A stretch of 33,366 bases of DNA, taken from Desulfocapsa sp. (GTDB taxonomy: Bacteria; Desulfobacterota; Desulfobulbia; Desulfobulbales; Desulfocapsaceae). The position numbers and the translations under genes were made by a program. The notes beneath the pieces are model-generated. The model was given only the letters and a program-made list of their open reading frames with translations. It made no database searches and was not told the origin of the DNA. The stretch lies in assembly GCA_024763035.1 (NCBI GenBank), contig JANTGG010000020.1:1-33366 (forward strand). The letters are read 5' to 3'. Positions 15,684 through 30,254 of the stretch are shown here, one piece after another (the stretch's first letter is position 1; each line of letters begins with the position of its first letter).

Positions 15684-16640
15684 ATGTTTGCCATAGCCGG
15701 ACAAAATCTGGATTCACCACTTATTCTCGCCCCCCTTGCAGGCTACACCGACCTGCCCTTCAGACTGCTCTGCAAACGCTATGGAGCAGGACTGGTCGTC
15801 TCCGAGATGATCAGTTGTCACGGGCTTCAGTACGGTCAGCAAAAAACACTGCACATGCTCAGATCATGCCCGGAGGAACGGCCTGTTTCCTTTCAGCTTT
15901 TTGGTGCTGACCCTGAGATTATGGGACAGGCGGCGGCACTGCTAAACGCTCACTCCCCATCTTTCATTGATATCAATATGGGCTGTCCCGTTCGCAAAGT
16001 GACCAAACGCGGCGCAGGCTCAGCCTTGATGAAAGATATCCGCCTTGCCGAGAAAATCCTTCGCAATGTTATTGCGAATACAGATGTTCCGGTAACAGTA
16101 AAGACCCGTTCCGGGATCGATTCCTCACAGACAACTGCCCTTGATTTTGCAAAAATGAGCGAAGACTGCGGGGTAGCCGCCATCTGTATCCATGGTCGTA
16201 CCTGGGCACAGGGGTTTTCGGGTACTGCCGACTGGGACATTGTGACAAAGGTAAAAGAGCATGTTTCCATTCCTGTTATAGGAAACGGTGATATAACAAG
16301 CCATATTGAAGGGATGAGGAGAATGCGGGAAACCGGCTGTGATGCTGTCATGATAGGAAGAGCCGCCCTTGGCAACCCCTGGGTGTTCCATCAGAACGGA
16401 CGACCGGCAACCCTTGCCGCCATCCTGCCGACGGTTATTGAGCATCTGCAGCTGATGGAGAAATATCTCGATACCCGAAGGCAGCTTGCCTATATCAGAA
16501 ATCATACAGGGCGATACTTCAGCGACCTGCCGGGAAGTTCACAAATTCGCAAGGCAGTCCATGCATCTCAGGATTTCGCCACCCTGTTCTCACTGATACG
16601 CAGATTACAGGTCGACAAGGGAATTACTTGTCAACAGTAA
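15684..16640 (+). CDS. dusB: tRNA-dihydrouridine synthase, DusB-type
   Basis: FMN-dependent enzyme reducing uridine to dihydrouridine in tRNA. It has a TIM barrel with LAPLAGYTDLPFR at the N-terminus and the catalytic Cys at position 101 in NMGCPVRKV. It also has VKTRSGI (139-145), the HGRTWAQ phosphate-binding region and IGNGDI. The shorter C-terminal helical part brings it to 318 residues, normal for the family. The family motif usually reads HGRTRAQ; a Trp replaces the second Arg here. The 3' end overlaps that of the convergent protease gene by 17 bp. Confidence 0.93.
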   Translation: MFAIAGQNLDSPLILAPLAGYTDLPFRLLCKRYGAGLVVSEMISCHGLQYGQQKTLHMLRSCPEERPVSFQLFGADPEIMGQAAALLNAHSPSFIDINMGCPVRKVTKRGAGSALMKDIRLAEKILRNVIANTDVPVTVKTRSGIDSSQTTALDFAKMSEDCGVAAICIHGRTWAQGFSGTADWDIVTKVKEHVSIPVIGNGDITSHIEGMRRMRETGCDAVMIGRAALGNPWVFHQNGRPATLAAILPTVIEHLQLMEKYLDTRRQLAYIRNHTGRYFSDLPGSSQIRKAVHASQDFATLFSLIRRLQVDKGITCQQ

Positions 16641-17922
16641 GCAGTGCCATACTTTTCAGGACAGAAATTGCGACCTGCAACTGTATATCCCCCTTGATTT
16701 CTGTTCTTTTTTGTTTTTCACGCTCACCGGCACCACTCCCCGCGCTTCGACGGTCTGCAACTGTTTCCTGATTTGGCAGATGCCCGGGCAGCCCCTCTTC
16801 ACGGATACTTTTTTCCGGGCATTTTTCATGTAACGGTTTGCTGACAGGGAGAATAATATCCGGATTGATACCAAGCGCCTGAATGGAATGACCGGACGGA
16901 GTGAAATAGCGACCGGTTGTCAGTCGTATGGCTGATCCGTCAGACAGGGGAAAAACAAGTTGTATCGTTCCTTTACCAAATGTTCTTGTACCGAGCACCA
17001 CAGCACGCCTGTTGTCCTGCAAGGCACCTGCCAGAACCTCTGCGGAACTTGCAGTGTTCCCATTAACAAGTACCAGGAGAGGAAACTGGTAGTTACTGCC
17101 GCCGGAATGTGCTGTGTAAGTCCTGTTCTGATCTGCTCTTCTGCCCCTGGTTGTCACGATGATCCCATCTTTTAGAAAGATATCTGCCACGTTCACAGCA
17201 TTCATAAGCAGCCCGCCTGGATTATTGCGCAGATCGAGTATCACTCCGCCGAGTTCAAGTTTTTTCTTTGTATCACGCAGATAGTTACGGATTTGACGGG
17301 TCACTGATTTTTGAAAATCCATGATCCGGATAAGCACTATCGACGAACCGACGACTCTACAGCTTAGCCCACGTGATTTCAGTGGTCTGCGCTTTAGAAG
17401 AAGGGTTCTTAGTTTCTCTGACCCGGGGTTCCTGACAGTGACCGAAACGCTGCTTCCTGCCTCTCCGCGCAGTTTCAAAACAGCGTCCTGAAGCGAGCAC
17501 TCTCCTATCGCTTCCAAGTCCACTGCAACTATCAATTCCCCCGCCACAATCCCCTGTTCATAAGCTGTCCCGCCTTCTATGGCATCAAGGACCATCAATC
17601 CATTGTCTGCCTTTTCCACCTCAACCCCGATGCCGCAGAACCTGCCGGCAGCCTGTCTGCTCAAAGCGGCTGTCTGCTCCCTGCTCAGATATGCGGAATG
17701 GGGATCAAGGGAAACGAACATTCCATCCACAGCCGCCTGTATTAACGTGCTGGTATCCACAGGATCAGGGTAGTTTTCATCAATACAGCGAAGAATCGCA
17801 GAAAGCGGTTCAATCGCCGAAGAAGATGAAGATCCGGCAACAATGACGTTTTCCCCAAAGCTCACATGGGCCGAAAGGAGGTGACACAGCAGCAGGATGG
17901 TGAGAAGAACAGCTTTTTTCAT
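16624..17922 (-). CDS. S41 carboxy-terminal processing protease
   Basis: Periplasmic serine protease of the CtpA/Tsp family that trims C-termini of envelope proteins. A signal peptide (residues 1-23, hydrophobic core LLTILLLCHLLSA) is followed by a PDZ domain (about 95-180) and an S41 core. The predicted dyad is Ser292 in TASSAEVL and Lys317 in GTRTFGKGTIQ, with Gln321. The Ser-Lys spacing of 25 matches E. coli Tsp. The usual TASASE reads TASSAE here but keeps the first Ser. A charged, presumably disordered tail (about 355-432) follows. No Shine-Dalgarno sequence is obvious at the ATG. Confidence 0.9.
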   Translation of the reverse strand: MKKAVLLTILLLCHLLSAHVSFGENVIVAGSSSSSAIEPLSAILRCIDENYPDPVDTSTLIQAAVDGMFVSLDPHSAYLSREQTAALSRQAAGRFCGIGVEVEKADNGLMVLDAIEGGTAYEQGIVAGELIVAVDLEAIGECSLQDAVLKLRGEAGSSVSVTVRNPGSEKLRTLLLKRRPLKSRGLSCRVVGSSIVLIRIMDFQKSVTRQIRNYLRDTKKKLELGGVILDLRNNPGGLLMNAVNVADIFLKDGIIVTTRGRRADQNRTYTAHSGGSNYQFPLLVLVNGNTASSAEVLAGALQDNRRAVVLGTRTFGKGTIQLVFPLSDGSAIRLTTGRYFTPSGHSIQALGINPDIILPVSKPLHEKCPEKSIREEGLPGHLPNQETVADRRSAGSGAGEREKQKRTEIKGDIQLQVAISVLKSMALLTVDK

Positions 17923-17963: not shown

Positions 17964-18037
17964 AATACCCCCGCCGACCAAATGGTCAACGGGGGTAAAG
18001 AATAGCGTAAAAAACTGTTTATTTAAAGAAACAGTTT
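17964..18037 (-). terminator. Two tandem terminator hairpins after the minus-strand ferredoxin gene
   Basis: Transcripts leaving the minus-strand oxidoreductase operon meet two hairpins. The first is AAACTGTTT/AAACAGTTT (18012-18037), followed on the minus strand by T residues and overlapping the stop codon. The second is GC-rich, TACCCCCG/CGGGGGTA with inner GACCA/TGGTC (17966-17997), followed by ATTCTTTTG. Together they separate the operon from the protease gene. Confidence 0.75.
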
Positions 18038-18845
18038 ACTTTTCGTCGCTATCATCCTGCAGGGATTTCACCAGCATTGTTCCGGCAAGACCGGCAAGAC
18101 CGATATTTCTTGCCTTCTTCATTGCTGGCTTCATCATACTGGCAAGCATTGACCGGCGACTGTTCGCATCAGGCATCTCCTGTGGAGTCGATGTCTTATC
18201 AAGCAGCTCCAGATCCTTTGCCTGACCATAATAGTAGACGTTCGGACCGATCTTGACATTTGCTGACTCAAGTCGTTTGGAACCTTTTTTCAGATATGCC
18301 GCAACATTCTTGTCATCGGTATACCCAAAGATCCGAGCATCAGCAATACAGGTCTGCACACAGGCTGGCTGCAATCCTTTACTGACCCTGGGCATACAGA
18401 AAGTACACTTGTCGGCAATTCCCTCACCGTCTAAATCCTCATTGACGGTATCGGGATTCACATAACGTGCACCGTATGGGCAGGCATCAGCACAGGCACC
18501 ACAACCAAGACAGCGGGTTTTATCAATCTGGACCGTTCCATTGAAAGGATCTTTCCAGGTGGCTGGAACCTCCATGGTTTTCGTTTTTCCGGTGATATCA
18601 TCTTTGAAGGTTACTTCAACCGTATCCGCAGGACACGCCTCAGTGCAAGCAGGTTCGTCACAGTGGTTACAAAGTCCGGGATAAAAGGTAAAGCATGTTC
18701 CCATACTGGTTTCAGCAGGACCGAGCCTGTTCACCCAGTTCCGTCGGTATGGCACCGGAACCTCCCACTCTGCACGACAGGCAATCGCACAGGCGTGACA
18801 TCCAACACAGCGGTCAAGGTCTATCACCATTGCATATTGTTTCAT
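18036..18845 (-). CDS. Four-cluster ferredoxin subunit of molybdoenzyme (copy 1)
   Basis: Electron-transfer subunit of the DmsB/PsrB/PhsB type that passes electrons between the catalytic subunit and an external partner. Four cysteine groups should each hold a [4Fe-4S] cluster: C13/16/19/23, C59/62/67/71, C112/115/118/122 and C147/150/162/166. It has no leader of its own, so it would leave the cell folded with the Tat-exported subunit. It is 269 residues, longer than simple PsrB because of a C-terminal tail (about 230-269). The tail is basic and then hydrophobic (ARNIGLAGLAGTMLV) and is shared with copy 2. It lies 13 bp after the catalytic gene, with GGAG before the ATG. Confidence 0.9.
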   Translation of the reverse strand: MKQYAMVIDLDRCVGCHACAIACRAEWEVPVPYRRNWVNRLGPAETSMGTCFTFYPGLCNHCDEPACTEACPADTVEVTFKDDITGKTKTMEVPATWKDPFNGTVQIDKTRCLGCGACADACPYGARYVNPDTVNEDLDGEGIADKCTFCMPRVSKGLQPACVQTCIADARIFGYTDDKNVAAYLKKGSKRLESANVKIGPNVYYYGQAKDLELLDKTSTPQEMPDANSRRSMLASMMKPAMKKARNIGLAGLAGTMLVKSLQDDSDEK

Positions 18846-18858
18846 TCTCTAATCTCCT

Positions 18859-21165
18859 TTAGGCTATTTTACTCTCAAAGCGGGGAATTTCATCCGGTAT
18901 ACTCACCAGTTCCGGAATATCCAGGGTTTTGCCACCCTTGATAATTCGTACGAAATTGGTTCGTTTACTGTCGGCACCGATAAATGGATCCTGAACAACT
19001 TCTGTCATCAGGAATCCATCTGAAGCCCCTTTACCATACGTCCGGGAGAGGTGTTTTGATGTTGAACCGAAGCCATGAAACATAAAGACAGTATCGGGAC
19101 GAATACCAGGTGTCACCAAAGCCTTAATGGGATTGGAACGTTTGCCATCCTGATTCTCAAGGATGATCTCCTCTTCATTTGTCACGCCGATTTTTGCTGC
19201 GACCTTATCATTGAGCCACAAATGATTTTCCGGCATCTCATTATTCAGCCAGAGATTGTTCATTGTTCTGGAGAAGGTATGCATTGGTGCCCGACCATAC
19301 ACAAGGCGGGTGTATCCTTTGGGAGGTGCAGGAGTGGGAATGAATTTTGGAATACCACCGAGATCCTCATCGTCAAAATCTTCCACGAAAAGCTGGATTT
19401 TCCCGCTTGCCGTTCCAATTTTCAGATTTTTGGAATCACGGTAAGGATTACCGGGATAGGTAACCAGCCCGCCCTTCTTGTTCAGCGAATCAAGGGAAAG
19501 CCCTGCCCCTTTTAACTCTTCGTCGAGAAATTCCTGTTCATCGTGACAGGTATAGCCTTTGATATCCAGTTTTTTGGCAAGTCCCTTGGCAATATCATAG
19601 GGGGACTTCACATCAAACATCGGTTTAACAACGGGCTGACGTACGGTCAGGTACGGTGTGAGTCCATCGTAGGCATACAATCCGTCATAGCGTTCCAGGT
19701 AAACACTGTCAGGTAACACGATATCAGACCAGATAGCTGTCTCACCTGCCATCATCTCTTCACAGAAGATAAAATCAAGCTTATTAATGGCCTTCATCGT
19801 CTCGTAAGGATTGGGCAGGGTCTGAATAATATTCACCCCATTTACTCCAAGCAGACGAACCGGATATGGCTTCCCGGTAAGTATCGCTTTGAAAATATCG
19901 CGGGTATTTGTACCAAACATGGAGGAAAACGGGTACTCACCGTCCTCCCGCAGTGAATCATCCTCAATCTCTGCAGTCTCCACGTCCTCCGGTTCCGGAC
20001 ACTCTGCCTTACCGGTCTTCACTGATGTGGGGAAATAAATACCACCGGGAACCCCAACTGCGCCAAAGAGGGCAGTAAGAATTGCATAGGACTGATGACG
20101 TCCGGTGTCACCTTTTCCATACCAGGTTGCATGACGTCCCGGATGGATATTGACGTTGGGAGCTGCCTTCGCTAGTTCTTCAATGGCAGCCTTCATATCT
20201 TCAATCTTCAGATCACAGATCTTTGCGGCCCATTCCATGGAATATCCGCTCACCTCTTTTTTCAGTGCCTCAAAGCCTGAACAGTTATTGGCAACGAAAT
20301 CTTTGGCATACAGATTGTTTTGAATGACATAATTAATCCATGCCAGCATCAGAGCGGTATCAGTACCGGGTCTGATGGGCAGATAGATATCCGCTTTATT
20401 GGCAGCAGCAGAAAAACGGGGATCAACAACAACAAGTTTAGATCCGTTCTGCAGGCCACCGATAAATTCACGAACATGGGAGACATGGACATTTTCTCCA
20501 ATGTGAGAGGCAACCAGCAGCATCGCTTTGGAATGTTCCATATCATTGTACTGACGGGTTCCTGTTGTCACATAGCCGACAGTTTCCAGATAAGCAAGGG
20601 CAGCAGGACCAACGCACTGATAAAATGCCGGCTCACTTGTGTAATTCTCAGTCCCCATTGCCTTAAAGATGCCGCGCAGGAACTCTGCTGAAGCACCATG
20701 GTCGAAATAGGCAAGGGCATGGGGCCCGTATTTTTTCTTTACCTTCTGCATGTTATGGGCGATCTCATCAAATGCCTCATCCCATGATATTTTTGCCCAC
20801 TTCCCTTCTCCTCGTGCACCCATACGTTTAAGAGGGGTTTTCACACGATCGGGATCATAGACCAGCTGTACACCGGCATTTCCGCGGGCACACACCCTGG
20901 GACCATTCACAGGACTTTTAGGATTTCCCTCAATCTTTATGACTTTTCCATCTTTTACTTTACCAACAATGGGGCAGCGCCAAAAACACATCTCGCAAAC
21001 AGAAGTAATTTCAGTTGCCCCCATACTACCAGTGCTTGCCCCCGGAACGGATTGCGCATGAGCCGTCCTGAAGAAATTGGGATTGCCTGGTAAGCCATCC
21101 ACTGTGGATGCTGCAACTGCCATAGCAGTGGCAGATGACATCTTGAGAAAATGTCGCCTATTCAT
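18859..21165 (-). CDS. Molybdopterin oxidoreductase, PsrA/PhsA-like, Tat-exported (copy 1)
   Basis: Catalytic subunit of a DMSO-reductase-family enzyme, most like polysulfide or thiosulfate reductases. A Tat signal NRRHFLK at residues 2-8 is followed by a hydrophobic stretch and an AHAQ cleavage region near 35-38. A [4Fe-4S] ligand set C57-x2-C60-x3-C64-x27-C92 follows. Cys184 in FYQCVGPAALAY is the expected molybdenum ligand. A C-terminal molydopterin-dinucleotide-binding domain contains RAPMHTFSRT. It is 768 residues, near the PhsA/PsrA length. The start at 21165 has a perfect AGGAGG seven to eight bases upstream. It overlaps the chaperone gene by 8 bp. The substrate cannot be read from the sequence; arsenate or other sulfur oxyanions are alternatives. 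Confidence 0.88.
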   Translation of the reverse strand: MNRRHFLKMSSATAMAVAASTVDGLPGNPNFFRTAHAQSVPGASTGSMGATEITSVCEMCFWRCPIVGKVKDGKVIKIEGNPKSPVNGPRVCARGNAGVQLVYDPDRVKTPLKRMGARGEGKWAKISWDEAFDEIAHNMQKVKKKYGPHALAYFDHGASAEFLRGIFKAMGTENYTSEPAFYQCVGPAALAYLETVGYVTTGTRQYNDMEHSKAMLLVASHIGENVHVSHVREFIGGLQNGSKLVVVDPRFSAAANKADIYLPIRPGTDTALMLAWINYVIQNNLYAKDFVANNCSGFEALKKEVSGYSMEWAAKICDLKIEDMKAAIEELAKAAPNVNIHPGRHATWYGKGDTGRHQSYAILTALFGAVGVPGGIYFPTSVKTGKAECPEPEDVETAEIEDDSLREDGEYPFSSMFGTNTRDIFKAILTGKPYPVRLLGVNGVNIIQTLPNPYETMKAINKLDFIFCEEMMAGETAIWSDIVLPDSVYLERYDGLYAYDGLTPYLTVRQPVVKPMFDVKSPYDIAKGLAKKLDIKGYTCHDEQEFLDEELKGAGLSLDSLNKKGGLVTYPGNPYRDSKNLKIGTASGKIQLFVEDFDDEDLGGIPKFIPTPAPPKGYTRLVYGRAPMHTFSRTMNNLWLNNEMPENHLWLNDKVAAKIGVTNEEEIILENQDGKRSNPIKALVTPGIRPDTVFMFHGFGSTSKHLSRTYGKGASDGFLMTEVVQDPFIGADSKRTNFVRIIKGGKTLDIPELVSIPDEIPRFESKIA

Positions 21166-21703
21166 GTATAACCTCCTTTTGGATTTTTCTGAGACACAGA
21201 TCAGTAATCTGGCCAAGTACCTTATAAAACGAACACGGTTGGGCATCCTGTAAACGCTGCAGGAATTTCGGATACCAAGATAAAAGATGTTTGCTGAGAA
21301 ACCGGTCCAGCACATCGTCCTGACCTTCGTCAAGCAAGAGAGCAACAAACTTCAACTCATGAGCTATATGATCAGGACTTTCTGCCGATTCAGACGGTTC
21401 AAGACCCGCTTCAGCATAAAAAGCAAGGGCCTCGTCATAGCCGCGCTGCCTGAGTATGCCTGCATCACCTACATAGACGGAAGCATAAGGCGGAGCAAAA
21501 AAACCATCTGCAGCATTGATAAATAAGCGGACATATTCAATCTGGAGTTCAGTCAGAGAAATATTTTCGATATCTGCAGCGGGAACAGTCTCCTGCTGCA
21601 GATCTGCAGCAAGAAGATTCAATGTTTTCACACTTTGCAAAACAGTATCCTTTTCAGGATAGGAAAACAGCTGTGAAAGGAAATGGAAAGGATGGTCGCT
21701 CAT
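21158..21703 (-). CDS. TorD/DmsD-family chaperone (copy 1)
   Basis: Cytosolic chaperone that binds the Tat signal of its molybdoenzyme and helps cofactor insertion before export. The all-helical 181-residue protein carries EYVRLFIN (56-63), PPYASVY (71-77) and PDHIAHELKF (110-119), the core TorD-family signatures. It is the first gene of the minus-strand operon, and its end overlaps the catalytic gene start by 8 bp, so the chaperone is made together with its client. The ATG at 21703 follows AGGGG at a long spacing of 12 bases. An in-frame TAG four codons upstream excludes an earlier start. Confidence 0.88.
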   Translation of the reverse strand: MSDHPFHFLSQLFSYPEKDTVLQSVKTLNLLAADLQQETVPAADIENISLTELQIEYVRLFINAADGFFAPPYASVYVGDAGILRQRGYDEALAFYAEAGLEPSESAESPDHIAHELKFVALLLDEGQDDVLDRFLSKHLLSWYPKFLQRLQDAQPCSFYKVLGQITDLCLRKIQKEVIHE

Positions 21704-22300
21704 ATGGTCTATCTACCCCTATACGTTATAGTCTTATCTCTTTTTTTGTTGGCTCGTCCATCAGCACTGCTGCCGGACAGACCTATCCACACTGTGGCAC
21801 TTCATGCTCCGGACAAGACCGTACCCCTCCTGCCACGTCCGCTCCCACCCTTGACCATGTACCAAAAAAGCAGCTCCAGAAGAAGAACGCAGCTTTCTCA
21901 AAACCCTGTCCGGGGGACACACACCCATCCAGCCAACTGAGCAATATCAAGCAGTTAACCAGAGACTCCGAAAGGATCAACCTACACAGTTTCAAGTCAT
22001 GAAACACACATGCAACAACACTATTTAATTGACATGGTCACCCGGAGAAGGAATGAGCTGTCAATCATTTTTGCACCCGTTCAACGTTTCTACCAGCATT
22101 AGTTTACAATAGCAATTATTTTATTAATAATTACGATCTTCATACAGCAGCAGTTTGAACTAAAAAGATTTTCCATTTGTTTTTCAACGTATTATCAGTT
22201 AGTTATTACAACGACCTATTTTTTACAATACTCATCTCTGAGTACATTTTTTTCCTCTCAAGTGAATAGCAATTCATTGACAAGTCAGGGGGAGTTGACT
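21704..22300. other. Intergenic control region between the divergent operons
   Basis: About 600 bp without a confident gene. The left half (to about 22010) is open in several frames on both strands. Examples are a plus-strand 21704-21940 frame with a hydrophobic N-terminus and a minus-strand 21783-22007 frame. None has a ribosome binding site or recognisable domain. The right half is AT-rich and contains a small dyad TGAC-ATG-GTCA (22030-22040). It must hold the promoters of both oxidoreductase operons. No convincing FNR box or -24/-12 promoter was seen. Confidence 0.5.
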
Positions 22301-22305
22301 ATGGT
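22277..22305 (+). promoter_or_regulatory. Candidate promoter for the plus-strand oxidoreductase operon
   Basis: A perfect TTGACA (22277-22282) with a 17-bp spacer precedes TATGGT (22300-22305, four of six). If used, transcription would start near 22312, inside or after the start of the short leader ORF at 22301. This promoter and translation of the full leader ORF are therefore mutually exclusive readings. Confidence 0.35.
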
Positions 22306-22405
22306 GGTGACACAATTTAGTATGAAGGAGTTGAACACACACCCAAAGCCTTCGCAATATCACCATATTATTTACTATTACGCACCCCTCTCAAGAATTT
22401 CATGA
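22301..22405 (+). CDS. Putative 34-residue leader ORF before torD-like gene
   Basis: An unrecognised short ORF. It has an ATG at 22301 preceded by AGGGGGAG with an ideal six-base spacing, a second in-frame ATG at 22322, and a TGA at 22403-22405 that overlaps the chaperone ATG as ATGA. The chaperone gene has no useful Shine-Dalgarno sequence, so ribosomes finishing this ORF could be what starts chaperone translation. The peptide is Tyr/His-rich near its end (YHHIIYYY). It may be a control leader or a small protein. Expression is not shown by the sequence, and a promoter candidate overlaps its start. Confidence 0.4.
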   Translation: MVVTQFSMKELNTHPKPSQYHHIIYYYAPLSRIS

Positions 22406-22992
22406 CTCAATCAGAAACGGCTGTCAATATAGCGCGCATCTACCGCTTTCTTGCTCAATGTATGCAATACCCGGATGCTGAATGGATGGGTGAGGACTTT
22501 TTTAATGTCCTTTACAATCTCCTTGGTACACTGGGTGCTGTTGACGATGGGGTAGCCATTAAAAAATCAATTGATTCCTCCTCTGACTTTATCGAGGACC
22601 TTCAAGTCGAATATACCAGGCTTTTCATAAACGGTGTTCCCCACGTAGTTGCCCCCCCCTACGGATCAGTTTACATGGACAAGGCCCTGCAGGGCGCATT
22701 CGCCGGTGACACAATAGCCTTTTATCGGAAAAAGGGATTTGGCATGGAAGAAGATGCTGATCTCCCCGACCATTTAATACACGAACTCGAATTCATTTCA
22801 CTCCTGGCAGAAGAAAATGACATTGCCGGTGAAGAGGAATTTTTAACAAAATTATTTCGACCTTGGTATGGAACCTTCCAGACCAGGGTAATGGAAGGAG
22901 CTCATCACCCGTTTTACAGGGTGATTGTACAATTAATAGATTTTTTCACTAAGGAGGAAGACAAAGATGGCTTTCAACCTAACAAGGCGTAA
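22402..22992 (+). CDS. TorD/DmsD-family chaperone (copy 2)
   Basis: Dedicated chaperone for the downstream molybdoenzyme. The 196-residue helical protein has YTRLFIN (71-77), PPYGSVY (85-91) and PDHLIHELEF (122-131). These are the same signatures as copy 1, though the rest has diverged considerably. The start is fixed: upstream in frame there is no ATG, GTG or TTG before a TAG. The ATG lacks a proper ribosome binding site and overlaps the stop of a short leader ORF. Its 3' end overlaps the catalytic gene by 26 bp and contains that gene's AAGGAGG. Confidence 0.88.
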   Translation: MTQSETAVNIARIYRFLAQCMQYPDAEWMGEDFFNVLYNLLGTLGAVDDGVAIKKSIDSSSDFIEDLQVEYTRLFINGVPHVVAPPYGSVYMDKALQGAFAGDTIAFYRKKGFGMEEDADLPDHLIHELEFISLLAEENDIAGEEEFLTKLFRPWYGTFQTRVMEGAHHPFYRVIVQLIDFFTKEEDKDGFQPNKA

Positions 22993-25207
22993 ATTCCTTC
23001 AGACAGCGTCCCTGGCAGCAGCCTCGGTTCCGCTGGCTAAGGTTGTTTCTGCCAACACCGGAGTCACAAAATCTGCCCTTGATGCAAAGGGGACTTTTGA
23101 AGACAAAACCGTTGTCGGCGGAATCTGCGAGATGTGTTTCTGGCGTTGTCAGTTAGTCGGCAAGGTTCGCGATGGTAGACTGATGAAAATCGAAGGGAAC
23201 CCAAAATCCATTGATAACGGTACATCAATCTGTGCCCGTGGAAATGCCGGGGTTCAACTGCTCTACGATGTAGATCGACTCAAATACCCAATGAAAAATG
23301 TTGGCAAACGCGGCGCCCCCAAATGGAAACGGATCTCCTGGAAAGAGGCCCTGGACGAATGTGGTTCCAAGCTGAAAGCCAGCCAGGACCAGTATGGCGC
23401 CCACAGCATCTGTGTCTTCCCCCATGGGGCTTCCGCCAAATACCCCATGCATTATTTTGAGCGCGCTGTGGGAACCCACAACGTCTCCGAGGCCTCCTTC
23501 TTCCAGTGTCGTGGTGTGCGAGATGTTGCTTATGTCAACTCAATCAGTAAAGCCCCTGGTGAGAAAATTGATATGGCAAACACCAAGGTGCTCTTCTTTA
23601 TCGGTGACCATCTTGGTGAGAACATTCATGTCTCTCATATCAAACAGTATGTTCAAGGTCTGCAAAACGGTGCAAAACTGATCGTTGCCGACCCGCGTTT
23701 TTCCGCATCTGCAGCTAAGGCTGATATCTGGGTTCAGATTAAGCCTGGCACCGATACTGCCTACCTGCTGGCCATCATGAACTACCTTGTCCAGAACAAG
23801 AAATATGACGCCGACTTTGTCGATGAGCATGGTGAGGGTTTTGACGAATTTGTTGAGGCCATCAAAGGCTGGAGCCTTGAAAAAGCTGCCAAGGAATGTG
23901 ATATTCCTGCGGAGCAGATCAAGGAAGTTGCCGAGATGCTGGCAGCCAATGCTCCAAATGTTGCCATCCATCCGGGTCGTTATTCCTCCTGGCATGGTAA
24001 TGACTTTCAGCGCATCCGCTCCCTGGCCTGCCTCACCGGACTTCTTGGAGCATACTACGTGAAAGGCGGCTGGGTTCCGACTAAGGGACCAAAAGTAAAA
24101 GGCGTCTCCTGGGCAAAAGAAGATCATGGTCACGAGTTTAATCTGAACATGGACCATCATGAGGACGAAAAAATCCATCCTTTTAATCCTCCTGGGACCC
24201 CCACTGACCTGATCCGTGACGCTGCAATTTCCGGGAAGCCATATCCCATCAAGAGCTGTGTTGTCTGGGGTCAGAACCCCATGCAGACCATACCCAATCA
24301 GCAGAAGACAAAAGACCTCTTAAAGGCCATGGATTTTGTGATGTGTGTAGATGTAATGCCCACCGATGTAACCATGTGGGCTGATATCCTGCTCCCGGAA
24401 TCCAGCTATCTTGAACGATACGACTATATCAAAAAAGGAACTCAGTGGAACCCCCAAGACGAGTCACAGCAATATATCTCTGCTCGTATGCCCCTTGTTC
24501 CTCCAATGTTTGAACGAAAAGACCAGGTCTATATCTGCAACGAGATTGCCAAACGCATGGGTCATGGTGATAAGATTCCAGTGAACACTATTGAAGAGAT
24601 GGTTGATAAGTCTCTTGCCTCCGCTAATCTTTCCATTGAAAAACTGGTTGCTGAAGACGGTATCCATATTCAGCCGGGTAAAGATCCCTACGGAGTCCCT
24701 GAAGATTTCACTGTTCTATTCTTCAATGAAGATATTGAAGATGCTGGCCATCCCGGCGCACCAACCTATAAACCGGTTCCTGACGTTCCCAAAGGATACG
24801 CCAGACTGCTTTACGGACGTGCCCCGGTTCACAGCTTCAACAGAACTCAGAACAATGTATGGCTCCACAATGCCATGCCTGACAACCCTGTCTGGGTAAA
24901 CGACGAAGTTGCCGCAAAAGTCGGTCTTATTGACGGTGATACCGTTGGTTTTGTCAATAATGAAGGTGTGGAGTCCCGAACGACTACCACAGTAAAGGTT
25001 ACTGCCGGTATACGGAAAGACTGTGTCTATATGTACCACGGTTTTGGTTCCGCCAACCCGCTGATGACCATCGGTGTTGGAGCAGGTGTTGATGATCAGA
25101 GCCTTATTACCGCACATAATGTCGACCCGGAAAGCGGATGTCACGGTATGCGTAACGGCTTTGTTAAACTGATCAAAGATGGAAAAGTTCTGGACCTTTC
25201 AGCCTGA
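22967..25207 (+). CDS. Molybdopterin oxidoreductase, PsrA/PhsA-like, Tat-exported (copy 2)
   Basis: Catalytic subunit paralogous to the minus-strand copy. It has a Tat signal TRRKFLQ at 6-12 with a hydrophobic stretch to about residue 29. The [4Fe-4S] ligands are C54-x2-C57-x3-C61-x27-C89. The expected molybdenum ligand is Cys181 in FFQCRGVRDVAY. The C-terminal dinucleotide-binding domain has RAPVHSFNRT. It is 746 residues. It shares CEMCFWRC and GENxHVSHxxxxxxGLQNG with copy 1 but differs around the active-site Cys (CRGVRD versus CVGPAA), which suggests a different substrate. AAGGAGG precedes the ATG. Exact substrate (polysulfide, thiosulfate, other) is not determinable here. Confidence 0.88.
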   Translation: MAFNLTRRKFLQTASLAAASVPLAKVVSANTGVTKSALDAKGTFEDKTVVGGICEMCFWRCQLVGKVRDGRLMKIEGNPKSIDNGTSICARGNAGVQLLYDVDRLKYPMKNVGKRGAPKWKRISWKEALDECGSKLKASQDQYGAHSICVFPHGASAKYPMHYFERAVGTHNVSEASFFQCRGVRDVAYVNSISKAPGEKIDMANTKVLFFIGDHLGENIHVSHIKQYVQGLQNGAKLIVADPRFSASAAKADIWVQIKPGTDTAYLLAIMNYLVQNKKYDADFVDEHGEGFDEFVEAIKGWSLEKAAKECDIPAEQIKEVAEMLAANAPNVAIHPGRYSSWHGNDFQRIRSLACLTGLLGAYYVKGGWVPTKGPKVKGVSWAKEDHGHEFNLNMDHHEDEKIHPFNPPGTPTDLIRDAAISGKPYPIKSCVVWGQNPMQTIPNQQKTKDLLKAMDFVMCVDVMPTDVTMWADILLPESSYLERYDYIKKGTQWNPQDESQQYISARMPLVPPMFERKDQVYICNEIAKRMGHGDKIPVNTIEEMVDKSLASANLSIEKLVAEDGIHIQPGKDPYGVPEDFTVLFFNEDIEDAGHPGAPTYKPVPDVPKGYARLLYGRAPVHSFNRTQNNVWLHNAMPDNPVWVNDEVAAKVGLIDGDTVGFVNNEGVESRTTTTVKVTAGIRKDCVYMYHGFGSANPLMTIGVGAGVDDQSLITAHNVDPESGCHGMRNGFVKLIKDGKVLDLSA

Positions 25208-25242
25208 TCTAATCTTTAAGCCTTTTTAGGAGGATATATTCA

Positions 25243-26052
25243 ATGCAATATGGAATGATCATAGATCTGGAACGCTGTGTCGGCTGTCATGCCTGCACCA
25301 TTGCCTGTCGGGCAGAGTGGGAAGTTCCGGTTCCTTACCAGCGTAACTGGGTAAAACGTCTTGGACCCACCATGACCGACCACGGAATGGCCGCAACCTA
25401 CTATCCCGGACTTTGCAATCACTGTGACAAGCCGCCATGTGTGGATGAGTGTCCCGCAGATCCGGTGGAGATGACTTTTAAGGATGCAAAAACAGGAAAA
25501 ACAAAAACCATGGAAGTAGCTGCAACATGGAAAGATCCGTTTGACGGAACTGTTCAGGTTGATAAAGAGCGCTGCCTTGGCTGTGGTGCCTGTGCAGACG
25601 CCTGTCCTTACGGCGCCCGCTATGTGAACCCTGATCTTGCTGACGATGACAGCGAGGGCAAGGTTGACAAGTGTACCTACTGTAAACCCCGTGTTGAACA
25701 GGGTCTGCAGCCTGCCTGTGTACAGACTTGTATCGCAGGTGCCCGTATCTTCGGTGATCTCAGCGATCCAAGTTCGGCAGTTTCCAAGTATGTGAAAAAT
25801 GGTGCCAAAGGCCTTGAAGTTAAAGACGGTCATATTGGACCTAACTCACGTTACTATGGCAACAAGAAAGATATGGGACTGCTCTTTGCAGACCACACAC
25901 CGGAACTTGCAGACATGGGCAGCGCTAAACGCCGTGCCATGATGGCATCCATGGTGAAACCTGCTATGAGAAAAGCAAAAGACATCGGAATGTTAGGTCT
26001 TGCCGGTGCTCTTCTTGTGAAAGGTCTTTCTGAAAACGAGGATAAAGAATAA
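25243..26052 (+). CDS. Four-cluster ferredoxin subunit of molybdoenzyme (copy 2)
   Basis: Electron-transfer partner of the preceding catalytic subunit. Cysteine groups C12/15/18/22, C58/61/66/70, C111/114/117/121 and C144/147/159/163 should bind four [4Fe-4S] clusters. It is 269 residues, the same length as copy 1 and clearly alignable over its whole length. The C-terminal tail (about 229-269) repeats the pattern RxMxASMxKPAMxKA, then IGMLGLAGALLV, then an acidic end. It has no signal peptide. GGAGG lies nine bases before the ATG. A strong terminator follows, so the operon ends here without a membrane quinol subunit. Confidence 0.9.
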   Translation: MQYGMIIDLERCVGCHACTIACRAEWEVPVPYQRNWVKRLGPTMTDHGMAATYYPGLCNHCDKPPCVDECPADPVEMTFKDAKTGKTKTMEVAATWKDPFDGTVQVDKERCLGCGACADACPYGARYVNPDLADDDSEGKVDKCTYCKPRVEQGLQPACVQTCIAGARIFGDLSDPSSAVSKYVKNGAKGLEVKDGHIGPNSRYYGNKKDMGLLFADHTPELADMGSAKRRAMMASMVKPAMRKAKDIGMLGLAGALLVKGLSENEDKE

Positions 26053-26079: not shown

Positions 26080-26114
26080 AAAAGGGGCTGTCGTGTTATA
26101 CGACAGCCCCTTTT
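26080..26114. terminator. Bidirectional terminator after copy-2 ferredoxin gene
   Basis: An 11-bp stem GGGGCTGTCGT/ACGACAGCCCC is flanked by AAAA on the left and TTTTCTTTTT on the right. It ends the plus-strand operon. On the minus strand it also ends the two-component operon that comes from the right. Confidence 0.92.
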
Positions 26115-26144: not shown

Positions 26145-26405
26145 TCAGGAATAAATAAAAACAAAGCGTTCATCATCAACGGAAATACGCAGCCTGCCTC
26201 CGTGATTTCTGCCATACATTTCCCACCCCGGGATATCATCAAACTCACATTTCAGACAACAGGGAGAATGTACGCCCTTATCCCTGTCACACCAGGACAC
26301 AAGCGTCATATACTCATTTCCCTCCTCCGCAATCACAGCTGTCATCTTTTTTGCCTGCTCAAAACTGATTTCATACCCACTTATCGTTATAAAGATATCG
26401 TTCAC
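26145..26405 (-). CDS. AF1514-like small cysteine-containing protein
   Basis: Function unknown. The 86-residue protein resembles the AF1514 (DUF5619) family by memory of its pattern: an N-terminal beta-helix unit, LVSWCDRDKGVHSP, four cysteines (39, 49, 50, 53), then PGWEMYGRNHGGRLRI and a closing FVFIYS. The Cys cluster could bind metal or act in redox or sulfur handling; this is inference. It starts at GTG, with GGAGG seven bases upstream, and the GTG overlaps the regulator stop as GTGA. It is thus the last cistron of the kinase-regulator operon. Confidence 0.65.
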   Translation of the reverse strand: MNDIFITISGYEISFEQAKKMTAVIAEEGNEYMTLVSWCDRDKGVHSPCCLKCEFDDIPGWEMYGRNHGGRLRISVDDERFVFIYS

Positions 26406-27820
26406 TTTCCTGCCTCCTGCTTTAATCTCCAGTTCAGTGCCTGCCTCGTCATACCAAGCATCTGAGCAGCTATCGCCTGGTTTCCCTGGGAACGCTGTAA
26501 TGCCTCCTGAATAAGGATCTTTCCAGAATCCTTCAAAGTGGGCAAAGTCTTAAGGCCACTGAAAACCGTCTCGCCTTTCGTCTCCACCGAACCGCCCGAT
26601 GATTTTTGCCCGCTGCGCTGCTCTATATACTGCTTGAAAACATTCATACTCAAAGTACGGCTCCCATGTTTTGACAGAGCATCAAAGACCATGGACTGCA
26701 GCTCCCTGACATTGCCCGGGTAATCATAAGTACCAAGAAGAATCACCAGTTCATTGGGATATGCCGGCTTCTTTTTATTCAGGCGACGGGCGGATTCTTC
26801 AAGGAAAAAATCAAGGAGAACGGGCAGATCGTCAAATCGTTCCCGCAGGGGCGGCACATGAATATGATGGGTGCGCAATCTGAAAAACAGATCCTGTCGA
26901 AATTCTCCAGATTTCTGCAATGATTCAAGATCCCGATGAGTGGCAAACAGCATCCTCACGTCTGCCCGACTGGCGACATCGGAACCCAGCGGATAATATT
27001 CCCGTTCCTGTAGGAGACGCAGAAGTTTCACCTGTGATTCTGCTGACAGATCACCAATTTCATCCAGGAACAGACTGCCGTCTGCAGCACTTGCGATAAG
27101 TCCTTTTCTGTTCTGATCGGCACCGGAAAAGGCTCCCTTTCTGTGCCCGAAGAGGGTGTCGCTGAGCATGGAGTCGTCAAGCCCTGCAATATTTACTGCT
27201 ACAAAGTCACCTTTACCGGCAGATAAATTATGAACCGCCCTCGCAAACAGTTCTTTGCCGGAACCGGTCTCTCCGGTGATCAAGACAGGTTCGTTAGTCA
27301 CGGCTATGGCTTCGATATACTGAAAGATGGAGCGCATTGCCTTGTTGTGCGTGACAATATGAGAGAAGGAATCGGGATGATTTAACCTATCCTGCAGGAA
27401 ATGCTCCTTTAACGAACTGTTTTCCCTGCGCAGCCTGCAGTAATCAACTGCCCGCTGTACCCCCGTCAGCAATCGGGCCTGTTCAGTCACCTTGGTAAAA
27501 AAATCATAGGCCCCTAGTTTCATGCACTGCACCGCAGTTTCAACCTGATCCAGCCCGGTAATGATGATCACCGGAATTTCCGGGTAATCCTGGACAACCA
27601 TGGGCAGCAGCTCCTCGCCTGACAAACCGGGCATGGTAAGATCAAGGACAAGGACCCCAATATCCATTGACTGCAGAATAGTCATCACTTCATTTGAGTC
27701 GTTACAGGTGGAAACATTATTCATACCGGCTGCCCTAAGGGTGAGGCTGAAGCTGTTCAGCCACGCTGGCTCGTCATCTACAAGAAGTATGGGCAATGGT
27801 GGATATCGTGTACTAGTCAT
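26402..27820 (-). CDS. Sigma54-dependent response regulator, NtrC family
   Basis: Two-component activator of sigma54 promoters. The receiver domain (about 10-125) has the acidic pair D15/D16, phosphoacceptor Asp60, Thr88 and Lys110. The AAA+ domain (about 153-385) has Walker A GETGSGKE (183-190), a GAFSGA sigma54-contact loop (229-234, Ser in place of the common Thr) and LFLDEIGD. A C-terminal Fis-type helix-turn-helix lies near 440-470 (GNQAIAAQMLGMTRQAL). At 472 residues it is complete. The cognate kinase lies 118 bp upstream on the same strand. The ATG lacks a good ribosome binding site. Confidence 0.93.
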   Translation of the reverse strand: MTSTRYPPLPILLVDDEPAWLNSFSLTLRAAGMNNVSTCNDSNEVMTILQSMDIGVLVLDLTMPGLSGEELLPMVVQDYPEIPVIIITGLDQVETAVQCMKLGAYDFFTKVTEQARLLTGVQRAVDYCRLRRENSSLKEHFLQDRLNHPDSFSHIVTHNKAMRSIFQYIEAIAVTNEPVLITGETGSGKELFARAVHNLSAGKGDFVAVNIAGLDDSMLSDTLFGHRKGAFSGADQNRKGLIASAADGSLFLDEIGDLSAESQVKLLRLLQEREYYPLGSDVASRADVRMLFATHRDLESLQKSGEFRQDLFFRLRTHHIHVPPLRERFDDLPVLLDFFLEESARRLNKKKPAYPNELVILLGTYDYPGNVRELQSMVFDALSKHGSRTLSMNVFKQYIEQRSGQKSSGGSVETKGETVFSGLKTLPTLKDSGKILIQEALQRSQGNQAIAAQMLGMTRQALNWRLKQEAGK

Positions 27821-27938
27821 AAGTTATCTGTTTTCTATCTGTTGATCCGGTTTGCAGTTGCAGTTTAAGCATAACTGCATTCCAGTTGAAAAGGCAAAAA
27901 AAATGGTAAGCAGCTCACAGCACTACATACAATTTATT

Positions 27939-30254
27939 TCACGTATCATCAGGAAGCATCGCCGGAAGTATCAAAACAACCTCGGTCCACTGCCTCTCTT
28001 TGGAGTAAAAGTTTAAAATCCCCTTATGTTCCTTTACAATTCCTGCGGAAACAGAAAGACCGAGTCCGGTCCCCCCCATACTCCGTTTAGTTGTAAAAAA
28101 AGGATCTGTCACTTTATTTATACAATCCGGTGCGATTCCCACGCCTTCATCGCGGATGGAAATTTCGACCCCTTCGGTTTCACGGTTATATCGTGTACGA
28201 ATGGTGAGTGACAGATCAGGGTTGTCCATGGCCTCACAACTATTTTGAATAAGATTGATCACGACCTGGATCAGTCGTTGTCTGTTGCCAAGAACCGGAG
28301 GCAGTGAAGGCGCATACTCACTGACAAAATTTCCGCTTGCCCTGCGAATACTGTTTGCGGTGAGCCGTACAGCCGACTGTACCACCTCGGTGATATCAAC
28401 GGGCGACATGTGTCCGCTTGTTTCCTGGCGAGCATAGTCTTTCAGGTCAACGACTATCTGCTTAATACGAACAGCACTTTCCTCCAGTTCGGCACAGATA
28501 CGTTTCAACTCTGTCCGCATGGCTGAATACTCTACCCCACCCACGGAAAAGTCTCCATACTCTTCATAATACTCATCCAGAATCGGCATGACATTTTCCC
28601 ATGATCGGCTGAGCACAGGCAGATTGAGAAGAGCGATGGAATTTGGATTATTTATTTCATGGGCAACACCGGAAACCAGCAGGCCCAGAGAAATCATCTT
28701 GTCGGCATGGAGCAGATGCTGTTGCTGCCTTCTTTTTTCCTCTTCACTTCGTTTTCTTTCAGTTATATCGCGAACGATCCATATTGCGTGCCATTCTCCC
28801 CTGATAGCGGTGGAGGAGAGTGAGAGTTCGACAGAGACATCCTTTCCTTCACGATTTCTTACCACCAGTTCAAGGGTTCCTGCGTAGGAAACAGTGGACT
28901 GCAATTCTTCAAGGGGTTGCACTATAAGCTCATCCCCCTCTCGACGTGGAGCAATCAGCGAATGTACAGGTTTTCCCAGTGCCTCTTTGGAGGAGTAGCC
29001 AAAGATACCGGCGGCTGCCTCATTCCAGTAGGTGATATTGCCTTCTTTATTCATAAGGAGTATGCCATCCTGTGCAGAGGCCGTGAGATTCCTGAATTTG
29101 TCCTCACTTTCCCGCAGAGATGACTCGGCAAGAACCCGTGCCTCACTCGTGTCACAGTACCTTTCACCAAATGCTGTGAGATCACGGGCAAGACTTTTAA
29201 TCTCACTGGGACCCTTCCAGCGAAAAACAAAGCGCCTTTCATTGTTGGTAATTTCGTTCAACCCCTCCAGGAGATCTTTCCGCAACCATTCTATTCGTCC
29301 GGCAATAAATGTTGCCGCCAAAAAGACAAGTGCCCCCATAACACAGATAGTCAGAATTACATTTATGCTCAGCCTTATCTTCCACTTTTCCAGTGCACTT
29401 TCATCAACCCTGCTCCCGACCCACATGACAACCCTGTGCTCCTCATTGAAAACAAGGGGCATCCAGGCAATTTTCCTTTTATCTTTGCCATTTAGAATAA
29501 TGAGATCTCTCACATCCATATTGTTCAGGTCGGGAAACTCACCAAAGGCATTACACTCATCCAACGTTATATCGTGAGCAGCAGAGAGGGAACTGACAGC
29601 ATCACAGCCCTGCAGATAACTGCCATTACTGTTGATCCAGTATGAATTTGTAAAATCATCAAGAAATTCCGACATATCGATGCGCATCATCAAAATAGCG
29701 ATGGGTTCACCTGCTCCTTCATATACAGGCGTGGACATGATGAGTTCATACCCCTTGTCATCACTACTTTTAAACGGGTCAGAATTGCGGGTTATCAAAT
29801 CAACAACCACTTCTCCCTCAGCAAGTGCCGAAGATTTCATAAAGAATTCATGTCCCTTGTGATTCTTGTCCGTGGTATCAGAAACAAACAGACCCTCTTC
29901 TTTTTTAAGACCAAGCACCTCCCTCCCCTCCGCATCAACGAGTAGTATCCCGTGAATCTGCTCATCGCTTCCAAACCATCTTTCCAGAACCTTTGACAGT
30001 ACAGCGATGGTTCGAAAATCATGGATGGCGGATCCGGTGGAAGGCAGAGTCGCTGCACGGATAAGGGATTTTTTAAGACAATGTATCCGCGTGTTCAGGT
30101 GGGTAAAATGAACATTTGAACGTGCCAGTGTTTCTATTTCTGCGGCATGTTCAAGGCGGGAAATGGTTGTGGGCCAGTTCAGGGCAACAAGGGTGAACAG
30201 GGGAAACAGACCGAGTGCGGTTACAATCAGAAATATAACACTACGTATTTTCAT
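27939..30254 (-). CDS. Membrane PAS sensor histidine kinase
   Basis: Senses a periplasmic or intracellular signal and phosphorylates the regulator encoded next. It has a first membrane helix at about 5-25, then an extracytoplasmic region of about 270 residues that looks Cache-like (VDAEGREVL, then YELIMSTPVYEGAG). A second membrane helix at about 296-317 precedes a HAMP-like linker and a PAS domain (about 383-500, ending VRDITERK). The HisKA phosphoacceptor is His532 in GVAHEINNP. The ATPase core has N671, DEGVGI (702-707) and GGTGLGL (727-733). It is 771 residues. AGGA lies seven bases before the ATG. No receiver or Hpt domain is attached. Confidence 0.92.
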   Translation of the reverse strand: MKIRSVIFLIVTALGLFPLFTLVALNWPTTISRLEHAAEIETLARSNVHFTHLNTRIHCLKKSLIRAATLPSTGSAIHDFRTIAVLSKVLERWFGSDEQIHGILLVDAEGREVLGLKKEEGLFVSDTTDKNHKGHEFFMKSSALAEGEVVVDLITRNSDPFKSSDDKGYELIMSTPVYEGAGEPIAILMMRIDMSEFLDDFTNSYWINSNGSYLQGCDAVSSLSAAHDITLDECNAFGEFPDLNNMDVRDLIILNGKDKRKIAWMPLVFNEEHRVVMWVGSRVDESALEKWKIRLSINVILTICVMGALVFLAATFIAGRIEWLRKDLLEGLNEITNNERRFVFRWKGPSEIKSLARDLTAFGERYCDTSEARVLAESSLRESEDKFRNLTASAQDGILLMNKEGNITYWNEAAAGIFGYSSKEALGKPVHSLIAPRREGDELIVQPLEELQSTVSYAGTLELVVRNREGKDVSVELSLSSTAIRGEWHAIWIVRDITERKRSEEEKRRQQQHLLHADKMISLGLLVSGVAHEINNPNSIALLNLPVLSRSWENVMPILDEYYEEYGDFSVGGVEYSAMRTELKRICAELEESAVRIKQIVVDLKDYARQETSGHMSPVDITEVVQSAVRLTANSIRRASGNFVSEYAPSLPPVLGNRQRLIQVVINLIQNSCEAMDNPDLSLTIRTRYNRETEGVEISIRDEGVGIAPDCINKVTDPFFTTKRSMGGTGLGLSVSAGIVKEHKGILNFYSKERQWTEVVLILPAMLPDDT

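Follow-up and report, generated by a model that had tools for sequence, protein, structure and literature searches.

Two divergent operons in the stretch of DNA analysed here (the window, 33,366 nucleotides of Desulfocapsa sp.; contig C20 of a 3.3 Mb assembly that is 92% complete) each encode a TorD-type chaperone, a molybdopterin catalytic subunit (A) and a ferredoxin subunit (B), without any gene for a membrane subunit (C), and both B proteins end in a shared C-terminal tail. The reading that we favour, at a probability of about 0.36, is that of a periplasmic AB enzyme linked to electron carriers, in which the tail would serve as a helix for peripheral contact with the membrane. The features on which the analysis rests were as follows.

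17966..17997, minus strand: terminator-like hairpin 3' of operon 1 (14-pair stem, then a T-rich run)
18036..18845, minus strand: B1 ferredoxin subunit, 269 aa (PF13247, E 5.2e-19)
18039..18164, minus strand: B1 tail, residues 228–269, from the alignment (tail profile match at 18042–18167)
18859..21165, minus strand: A1 molybdopterin catalytic subunit (Tat-like N-terminus MNRRHFLK; PF00384, PF04879 and PF01568 over cut-off)
21158..21703, minus strand: TorD-type chaperone of operon 1 (PF02613, E 3.6e-25)
22402..22992, plus strand: TorD-type chaperone of operon 2 (PF02613, E 7.4e-18)
22967..25207, plus strand: A2 molybdopterin catalytic subunit (Tat-like N-terminus NLTRRKFLQT; PF00384, E 1.1e-31)
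25243..26052, plus strand: B2 ferredoxin subunit, 269 aa (PF13247, E 2.9e-20)
25924..26049, plus strand: B2 tail, residues 228–269 (tail profile, E 1.3e-22; selection by part)
25981..26028, plus strand: glycine-rich hydrophobic part of the B2 tail, residues 247–262 (selection by part, hydropathy)
26080..26114, plus strand: terminator-like hairpin 3' of operon 2 (16-pair stem, then a T-rich run)

An earlier note on this DNA had held that both operons stop at the ferredoxin gene, and this was confirmed: the order TorD-A-B runs from 21703 to 18036 on the minus strand and from 22402 to 26052 on the plus strand, with neither ORFs nor Pfam matches pointing to a membrane-subunit gene in either operon. 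The hairpins 3' of the two B genes are strong, in a region whose total of terminator-like sites (9) does not exceed the chance expectation (8.6). The start of A1 was taken as the ATG at 21165, which lies inside a longer listed ORF that begins at a TTG at 21348 within torD; with this ATG, which gives the Tat-type N-terminus, A1 and the end of torD share 8 bases. An S41 protease gene (16624–17922) follows on the same strand, 113 bases downstream of B1, and a sigma-54 response regulator gene (26402–27820) on the opposite strand comes after B2. Together with a Cache/PAS histidine kinase the regulator occupies 26402–30254, opposite to operon 2, and ORFs matching this pair in size and order adjoin the same operon in four further loci (L066, L070, L072 and L073).

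Both A1 and A2 carry the Molybdop_Fe4S4, Molybdopterin and Molydop_binding domains of Pfam. A2, the one searched against solved structures, has PsrA as closest solved relative (2vpw_A, E 2.8e-137) along its length, and the NCBIfam model for PhsA (PRK15488) gave 472 bits for A1, the other score being 447, both below the cut-off of 694. A1 has a Cys at the FYQC site, which we take to be the Mo ligand. The Pfam TAT_signal model scored 20.7 bits on A1, under its cut-off of 22.7, and was not listed for A2; both N-termini are of twin-arginine type. Neither B1 nor B2 shows a signal peptide, as judged by eye. Sixteen Cys are invariant in the alignment of 51 B rows, enough for four 4Fe-4S clusters. The closest solved relative of B is PsrB (2vpw_B; profile E 3.5e-42, Foldseek E 2.7e-18 over 223 columns), so that compared with PsrABC of Thermus thermophilus (2VPW) A2 and B match PsrA and PsrB in sequence, and B also in fold. 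The differences are that Thermus has PsrC, with none found here, and that PsrB has 195 aa against 269 aa of B, which has an unmatched stretch at profile positions of about 75–100 and the tail. Solved PsrB matches only positions 2–74 and 101–191 of the 266 in the B profile. The tail lies beyond both stretches, and the earlier proposal thus stood in so far as it set the tail apart from the usual PsrB fold. Judging from these sequence matches, both operons probably encode Psr/Phs-type enzymes that reduce thiosulfate or polysulfide.

To place the window among its relatives we collected 58 B rows scoring over 250 bits, 52 of them with an adjacent A gene (48 distinct operons) and six without (L049, L050, L056, L057, L070 and L102). 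No C gene was found beside any of the 52 A-B operons. At least 300 bases followed B in 47 of these rows and at least 2500 in 40, and the view was accordingly limited in 12 rows with less than 2500 bases, five of which had less than 300. ORFs with at least four hydrophobic segments overlapped the 2.5 kb on either side in 13 rows, giving 12 distinct ORFs, all of which Pfam placed outside the C families: EamA, an antiporter-type Proton_antipo_M, MotA/ExbB (two), histidine kinases (two), an RND pump, CDP-alcohol transferase, CvpA, rhomboid (two) and LytB/UbiA. A C subunit of cytochrome b type was sought as such a multi-TM neighbour only. Ten closed or near-closed genomes selected for the presence of B all had NrfD genes elsewhere (PF03916), and in every case the distance between B and the nearest of these was at least 171 kb. 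The lack of subunit C is general in these A-B operons, as has already been published.

A search for orphan NrfD genes, as suggested in the earlier note, gave three in the window's assembly, on contigs C71, C95 and C134. None looks like a stray PsrC, because each lies beside an FeS gene, the C71 locus resembles DsrMKJOP in gene order and size, and those on C95 and C134 come with a multihaem cytochrome; these three were hence rejected as an orphan PsrC, though one may lie in the part missing from this 92% complete assembly. The C95 and C134 loci are stand-alone FeS/multihaem cytochrome/NrfD modules (L044, 2467–5274, and L046, 2627–5952), which hold an FeS protein with a Tat-like N-terminus and cytochromes with 6 and 9 CxxCH motifs. 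We also observed, in the window's order, B-like ferredoxin genes without adjacent A (L049, 7332–8090; L050, 688–1404; L057, 7843–8586; L051, 7474–8181), those of L049, L050 and L057 having short RR tails.

AB enzymes without C, named PhsAB or MolyAB, are already known, and the tail of B was not found described in the accessible parts of the literature searched, most subscription journals and all supplements lying outside its coverage. The MOLY cluster (MolyA, MolyB and MolyC) of sulfur-disproportionating Desulfobacterota likewise combines syntenic genes for A, B and a TorD/DmsD chaperone and has no membrane subunit, other CISM members typically having a transmembrane anchor; in the available sections of that paper the B tail is not mentioned, the sole use of ‘C-terminal’ concerning AprB (PMC12998232). 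Both operons of the window fit the MOLY description, as compared by gene content and description. The YTD cluster, with YedE as a marker of sulfur disproportionation, was unsupported here, no PF04143 match being present in the window's assembly. According to the accessible text, Desulfolithobacter dissulfuricans has two PhsAB copies, like the window, with C stated to be lacking, and its Phs is low in abundance under thiosulfate disproportionation (PMC9751629), which counts against a simple role in that process. Candidatus Desulfobulbus rimicarensis, one of whose contigs is our locus L077 with a full tail, also has two thiosulfate reductases, named phsAB, with phsAB transcripts reported in the sections seen (PMC7117923). 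Desulfobulbaceae near the cable bacteria are described in the available excerpts as encoding PhsAB only, cable bacteria themselves having C (PMC13047784). In the portions at hand these three papers discuss expression and the loss of quinone interaction, not the tail (PMC9751629, PMC13047784, PMC7117923). A putative thiosulfate reductase of Desulfovibrio alaskensis G20 is likewise named PhsAB, and its mutants are slightly less fit on thiosulfate, according to the part of the paper available (PMC4215793).

The shared tail noted earlier on both ferredoxin proteins was verified as residues 228–269, which are 55% identical between the copies, less than the 68% identity of B1 and B2 as a whole; A1 and A2 are 42% identical. 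In B2 the tail has RRAMM at 230–234, then a basic part, then a hydrophobic part rich in glycine, and its end is acidic. It could not be assigned to a known domain, as C-terminal fragments of B1 and B2 had no Pfam match up to E 1 and PHROGs gave only a ferredoxin family ending at residue 173.

For its distribution we classed 52 tails, namely those of the 58 B rows minus eight, plus the two of the window. The rows left out were L082 and L085 (contig ends), L086 (a run of N) and the duplicates L093, L102, L175, L179 and L186; the loci L088, L089, L099, L100 and some distant ones were unused, with no B gene found in them. Classification by pattern gave 32 B proteins with a full tail, 17 with a short tail and 3 without any, L094 being counted as short despite its SLMGLLGTIAAKK stretch. 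The near-universal core is R-R-x-hydrophobic-hydrophobic, found in 47 of the 52 tails against 1.6 expected from shuffling each tail (49 against 4.2 when K-R is also allowed), and carried by most short tails too; these B proteins do not have it elsewhere, nor do any of 13 outgroup B proteins within their last 60 residues. The glycine-rich stretch (32/52) is a lineage-specific feature, found in most members of the window's order. In a survey of 193 genomes of that order, 107 had B (115 places; E 1e-60 or better), and the tail on its own, searched as a profile, matched in 96 (102 places, a few of them partial and weak; E 0.01 or better). All but one of the 102 tail places were on a listed B, the remaining one being a 73-aa frame in a genome where a contig end truncates B, and 14 of the 115 B places had no tail match (101 had one). 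Across the phylum B was found in 21 of 297 genomes at E 1e-45 or better, and those B proteins from other orders that were inspected had shorter tails or none.

The tail looks constrained, and its core more frequent than chance would give. Among 17 same-genus genes the uncorrected pN/pS was 0.22 for the tail and 0.11 for the core of the protein, and by part of the tail 0.12 (basic), 0.21 (hydrophobic) and 0.37 (acidic end); with synonymous sites near saturation, these values support constraint on the tail, less than on the core, and no more. The earlier argument that conservation implies a function therefore held with regard to this constraint and the frequency of the twin-arginine core, but conservation from copy to copy, on which it had been based, is weaker evidence, since B1 appears to be a mosaic.

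That mosaic was seen when B1 was compared with the B proteins of A1-type and of A2-type operons. Mean identities were 78 and 70%, respectively, for residues 1–60, 53 and 66% for 61–100, 62 and 73% for 101–175, 51 and 51% for 176–220, and 27 and 48% for the tail. In the tree of A, A1-type and A2-type operons split with full support and operon 1 falls, together with L189 and L092, among A1-type sequences most of which have short tails, the strongly supported branches forcing at least three changes of the full-tail state. In the tree of B, B1 and L189 stand beside the same short-tailed group (support 91) and B2 is in a full-tail group of 29 rows (98), with only one change of tail state forced. 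Both trees were quick searches with SH-aLRT support only and gave long-branch warnings. The pattern suggests exchange between paralogous B genes, which would explain both the mosaic and the identities of 42% for A and 68% for B, and the full tail appears to have spread in this way to the A1-type operon; faster change in A1-type B proteins from other orders may also account for it. Owing to the apparent exchange, the tail shared by the two copies is not independent evidence of function.

The suggestion that the tail stands in place of subunit C fared less well. As a requirement it failed, because all three tail-less B proteins, together with 13 of the 17 short-tailed ones, adjoin A without C (the other four short-tailed are without adjacent A), and because an outgroup A-B-TorD operon (L137, whose long branch is of uncertain position in the tree) lacks both C and tail, its multi-TM neighbour being a LuxR-type regulator. 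The tail is thus not required for life without C. As a correlation it stood in part: the 52 A-B operons have no C beside them, and for 12 of the 13 outgroup B genes an ORF that is NrfD-like or multi-TM lies no more than two genes away, but this amounts to one deep split in the tree rather than repeated events. Tail and loss of C as independent co-occurrences were accordingly rejected, the outgroup being one side of one branch.

We also analysed the physical character of the tail. Over the 18 residues from the RR onward (16–17 where the protein ends) the net charge was +3 to +8 in the 16 tails examined, and the helical moment of the same stretch only 0.11–0.50, so the tail helix is not uniformly amphipathic; the best 18-residue moment within the last 50 residues was 0.33–0.72, for a segment that in a few short tails precedes or spans the RR. 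In 11 full tails the hydrophobic part gave 19-residue Kyte-Doolittle means of 0.7–1.3, compared with 2.4–2.7 for the top five windows of one NrfD of the same genome, and summed insertion costs of 5.6–10.4, both from residue scales used in place of a dedicated TM predictor. An ordinary transmembrane anchor, as the membrane attachment envisaged earlier might have been, was therefore rejected, the hydrophobic part, about 15 residues long, being too weak in hydropathy. Tail-anchored FeS proteins of the Tat pathway (HybA, hydrogenase small subunits, formate dehydrogenase and HmcB) are similar in being exported with a C-terminal hydrophobic element, and one class of them, like B, is without a signal peptide of its own; as described in the sections available, theirs is a predicted transmembrane helix, in contrast to the weakly hydrophobic stretch found here (PMC10924467).

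AlphaFold2 predictions for B2 (51 rows in the alignment) had a mean pLDDT of 84.7 in the best of five models and of 72.4 to 56.8 in the others, with a helix at 225–266 whose tail blocks had pLDDT values of 77, 73, 58, 58 and 54. A natural A-B chain from L066, in which the stop between the genes was read as a residue, gave a mean of 80.4 and tail blocks of 74, 64, 44, 43 and 35, with B less confident than when modelled alone. In these models the tail is an addition to the usual PsrB fold, and confidence in any position of its hydrophobic part on A or B is low. The low pLDDT can mean plain disorder, and the poorly placed hydrophobic part would fit a partner outside AB.

Several roles for the tail can be weighed against these data. 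It may be a clamp for assembly, packing on A, or on the side of the last FeS cluster which C would cover, so that the cluster would be shielded and A and B kept joined. We consider this possible, if somewhat doubtful: the start of the tail helix is moderately placed in the modelled A-B chain (pLDDT 74, then 64), the twin arginine is as widespread as expected of a contact site, also in most short tails, and B1 is A2-like both in residues 61–175 and in the tail, but the hydrophobic part is unplaced (pLDDT about 43) and three A-B pairs manage without any tail. Docking of a periplasmic cytochrome, or of the stand-alone FeS-cytochrome-NrfD modules on C95 and C134, is unlikely. Such modules do occur in this genome, and NrfD is found elsewhere in 10 of 10 closed or near-closed genomes; type I cytochrome c3 shows a lysine-rich face, however, and the tail is itself basic, and Cytochrom_CIII matched just twice in the assembly, with scores (25.8 and 22.9 bits) that reach or barely exceed the cut-off.

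The likeness of RRxhh plus a weakly hydrophobic stretch to a displaced Tat signal raises the idea of a C-terminal element related to Tat or to export proofreading, by which the translocase or TorD would sense B, the partner without a signal peptide. The minimal Tat motif is given as R-R-x-phi-phi in the accessible part of one paper (PMC10924467). Of the 52 tails 47 match it, as noted above, and it occurs neither elsewhere in these proteins nor near the C-terminus (last 60 residues) of any of the 13 outgroup B proteins. Tat signals are N-terminal, though, TAT_signal had no match in either tail fragment of the window even at E 1, charged residues intervene between the motif and the hydrophobic part, no tail is present in three members, and RRxhh can arise in a basic helix for other reasons, all of which makes this explanation improbable. 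We would give as little credence to the view that the tail is a mostly disordered appendage of certain lineages and takes no part in electron transfer or localisation: tail presence follows phylogeny, some relatives are without it and its pLDDT is low, yet there is constraint in the 17 same-genus genes, the twin-arginine pattern is kept beyond the order, and the full tail has apparently spread to the A1-type operon. A long shot, finally, is that RRxhh and the glycine-rich stretch form a second, C-terminal signal that engages the translocase or the membrane on a signal-less hitchhiker, marking quinone-independent sulfur reductases that lost or never had C, and that on the enzyme it acts as a peripheral membrane hook, apparently passed between paralogous operons.

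Membrane contact of the tail is the reading we retain. Each operon would encode a TorD-matured, Tat-exported periplasmic AB enzyme of polysulfide/thiosulfate reductase type, the signal-less B travelling with A, and this enzyme, having no C of its own, would exchange electrons with periplasmic carriers without binding quinone directly. The tail of B would be an extra, non-catalytic element, a strongly basic helix starting with R-R-x-hydrophobic-hydrophobic that in most members of the window's order would continue into a short glycine-rich hydrophobic hook, and it may attach AB peripherally to the outer side of the cytoplasmic membrane, through anionic lipid or a membrane partner encoded elsewhere. 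We infer the export as an AB pair, the electron partner, the substrate and the membrane attachment. The TorD-A-B gene content, the match of A2 to PsrA, the lack of C beside the 52 A-B operons, the basic charge and the strongest tail constraint in the basic part speak for this reading; the low helical moment, the weak hydropathy and the 3 tail-less and 17 short-tailed B proteins of this C-less family speak against it. MolyAB is predicted to be extracellular, according to the text available (PMC12998232), which leaves membrane contact open.

For sulfur disproportionation it matters how C-less PhsAB and MolyAB pass on their electrons, a point on which the literature, in the sections seen, stops at the lack of C and a possible loss of quinone interaction (PMC9751629, PMC13047784, PMC12998232). 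A conserved tail of about 40 residues that can be deleted offers a handle on the localisation of these enzymes, on the assembly of A with B and on electron transfer.
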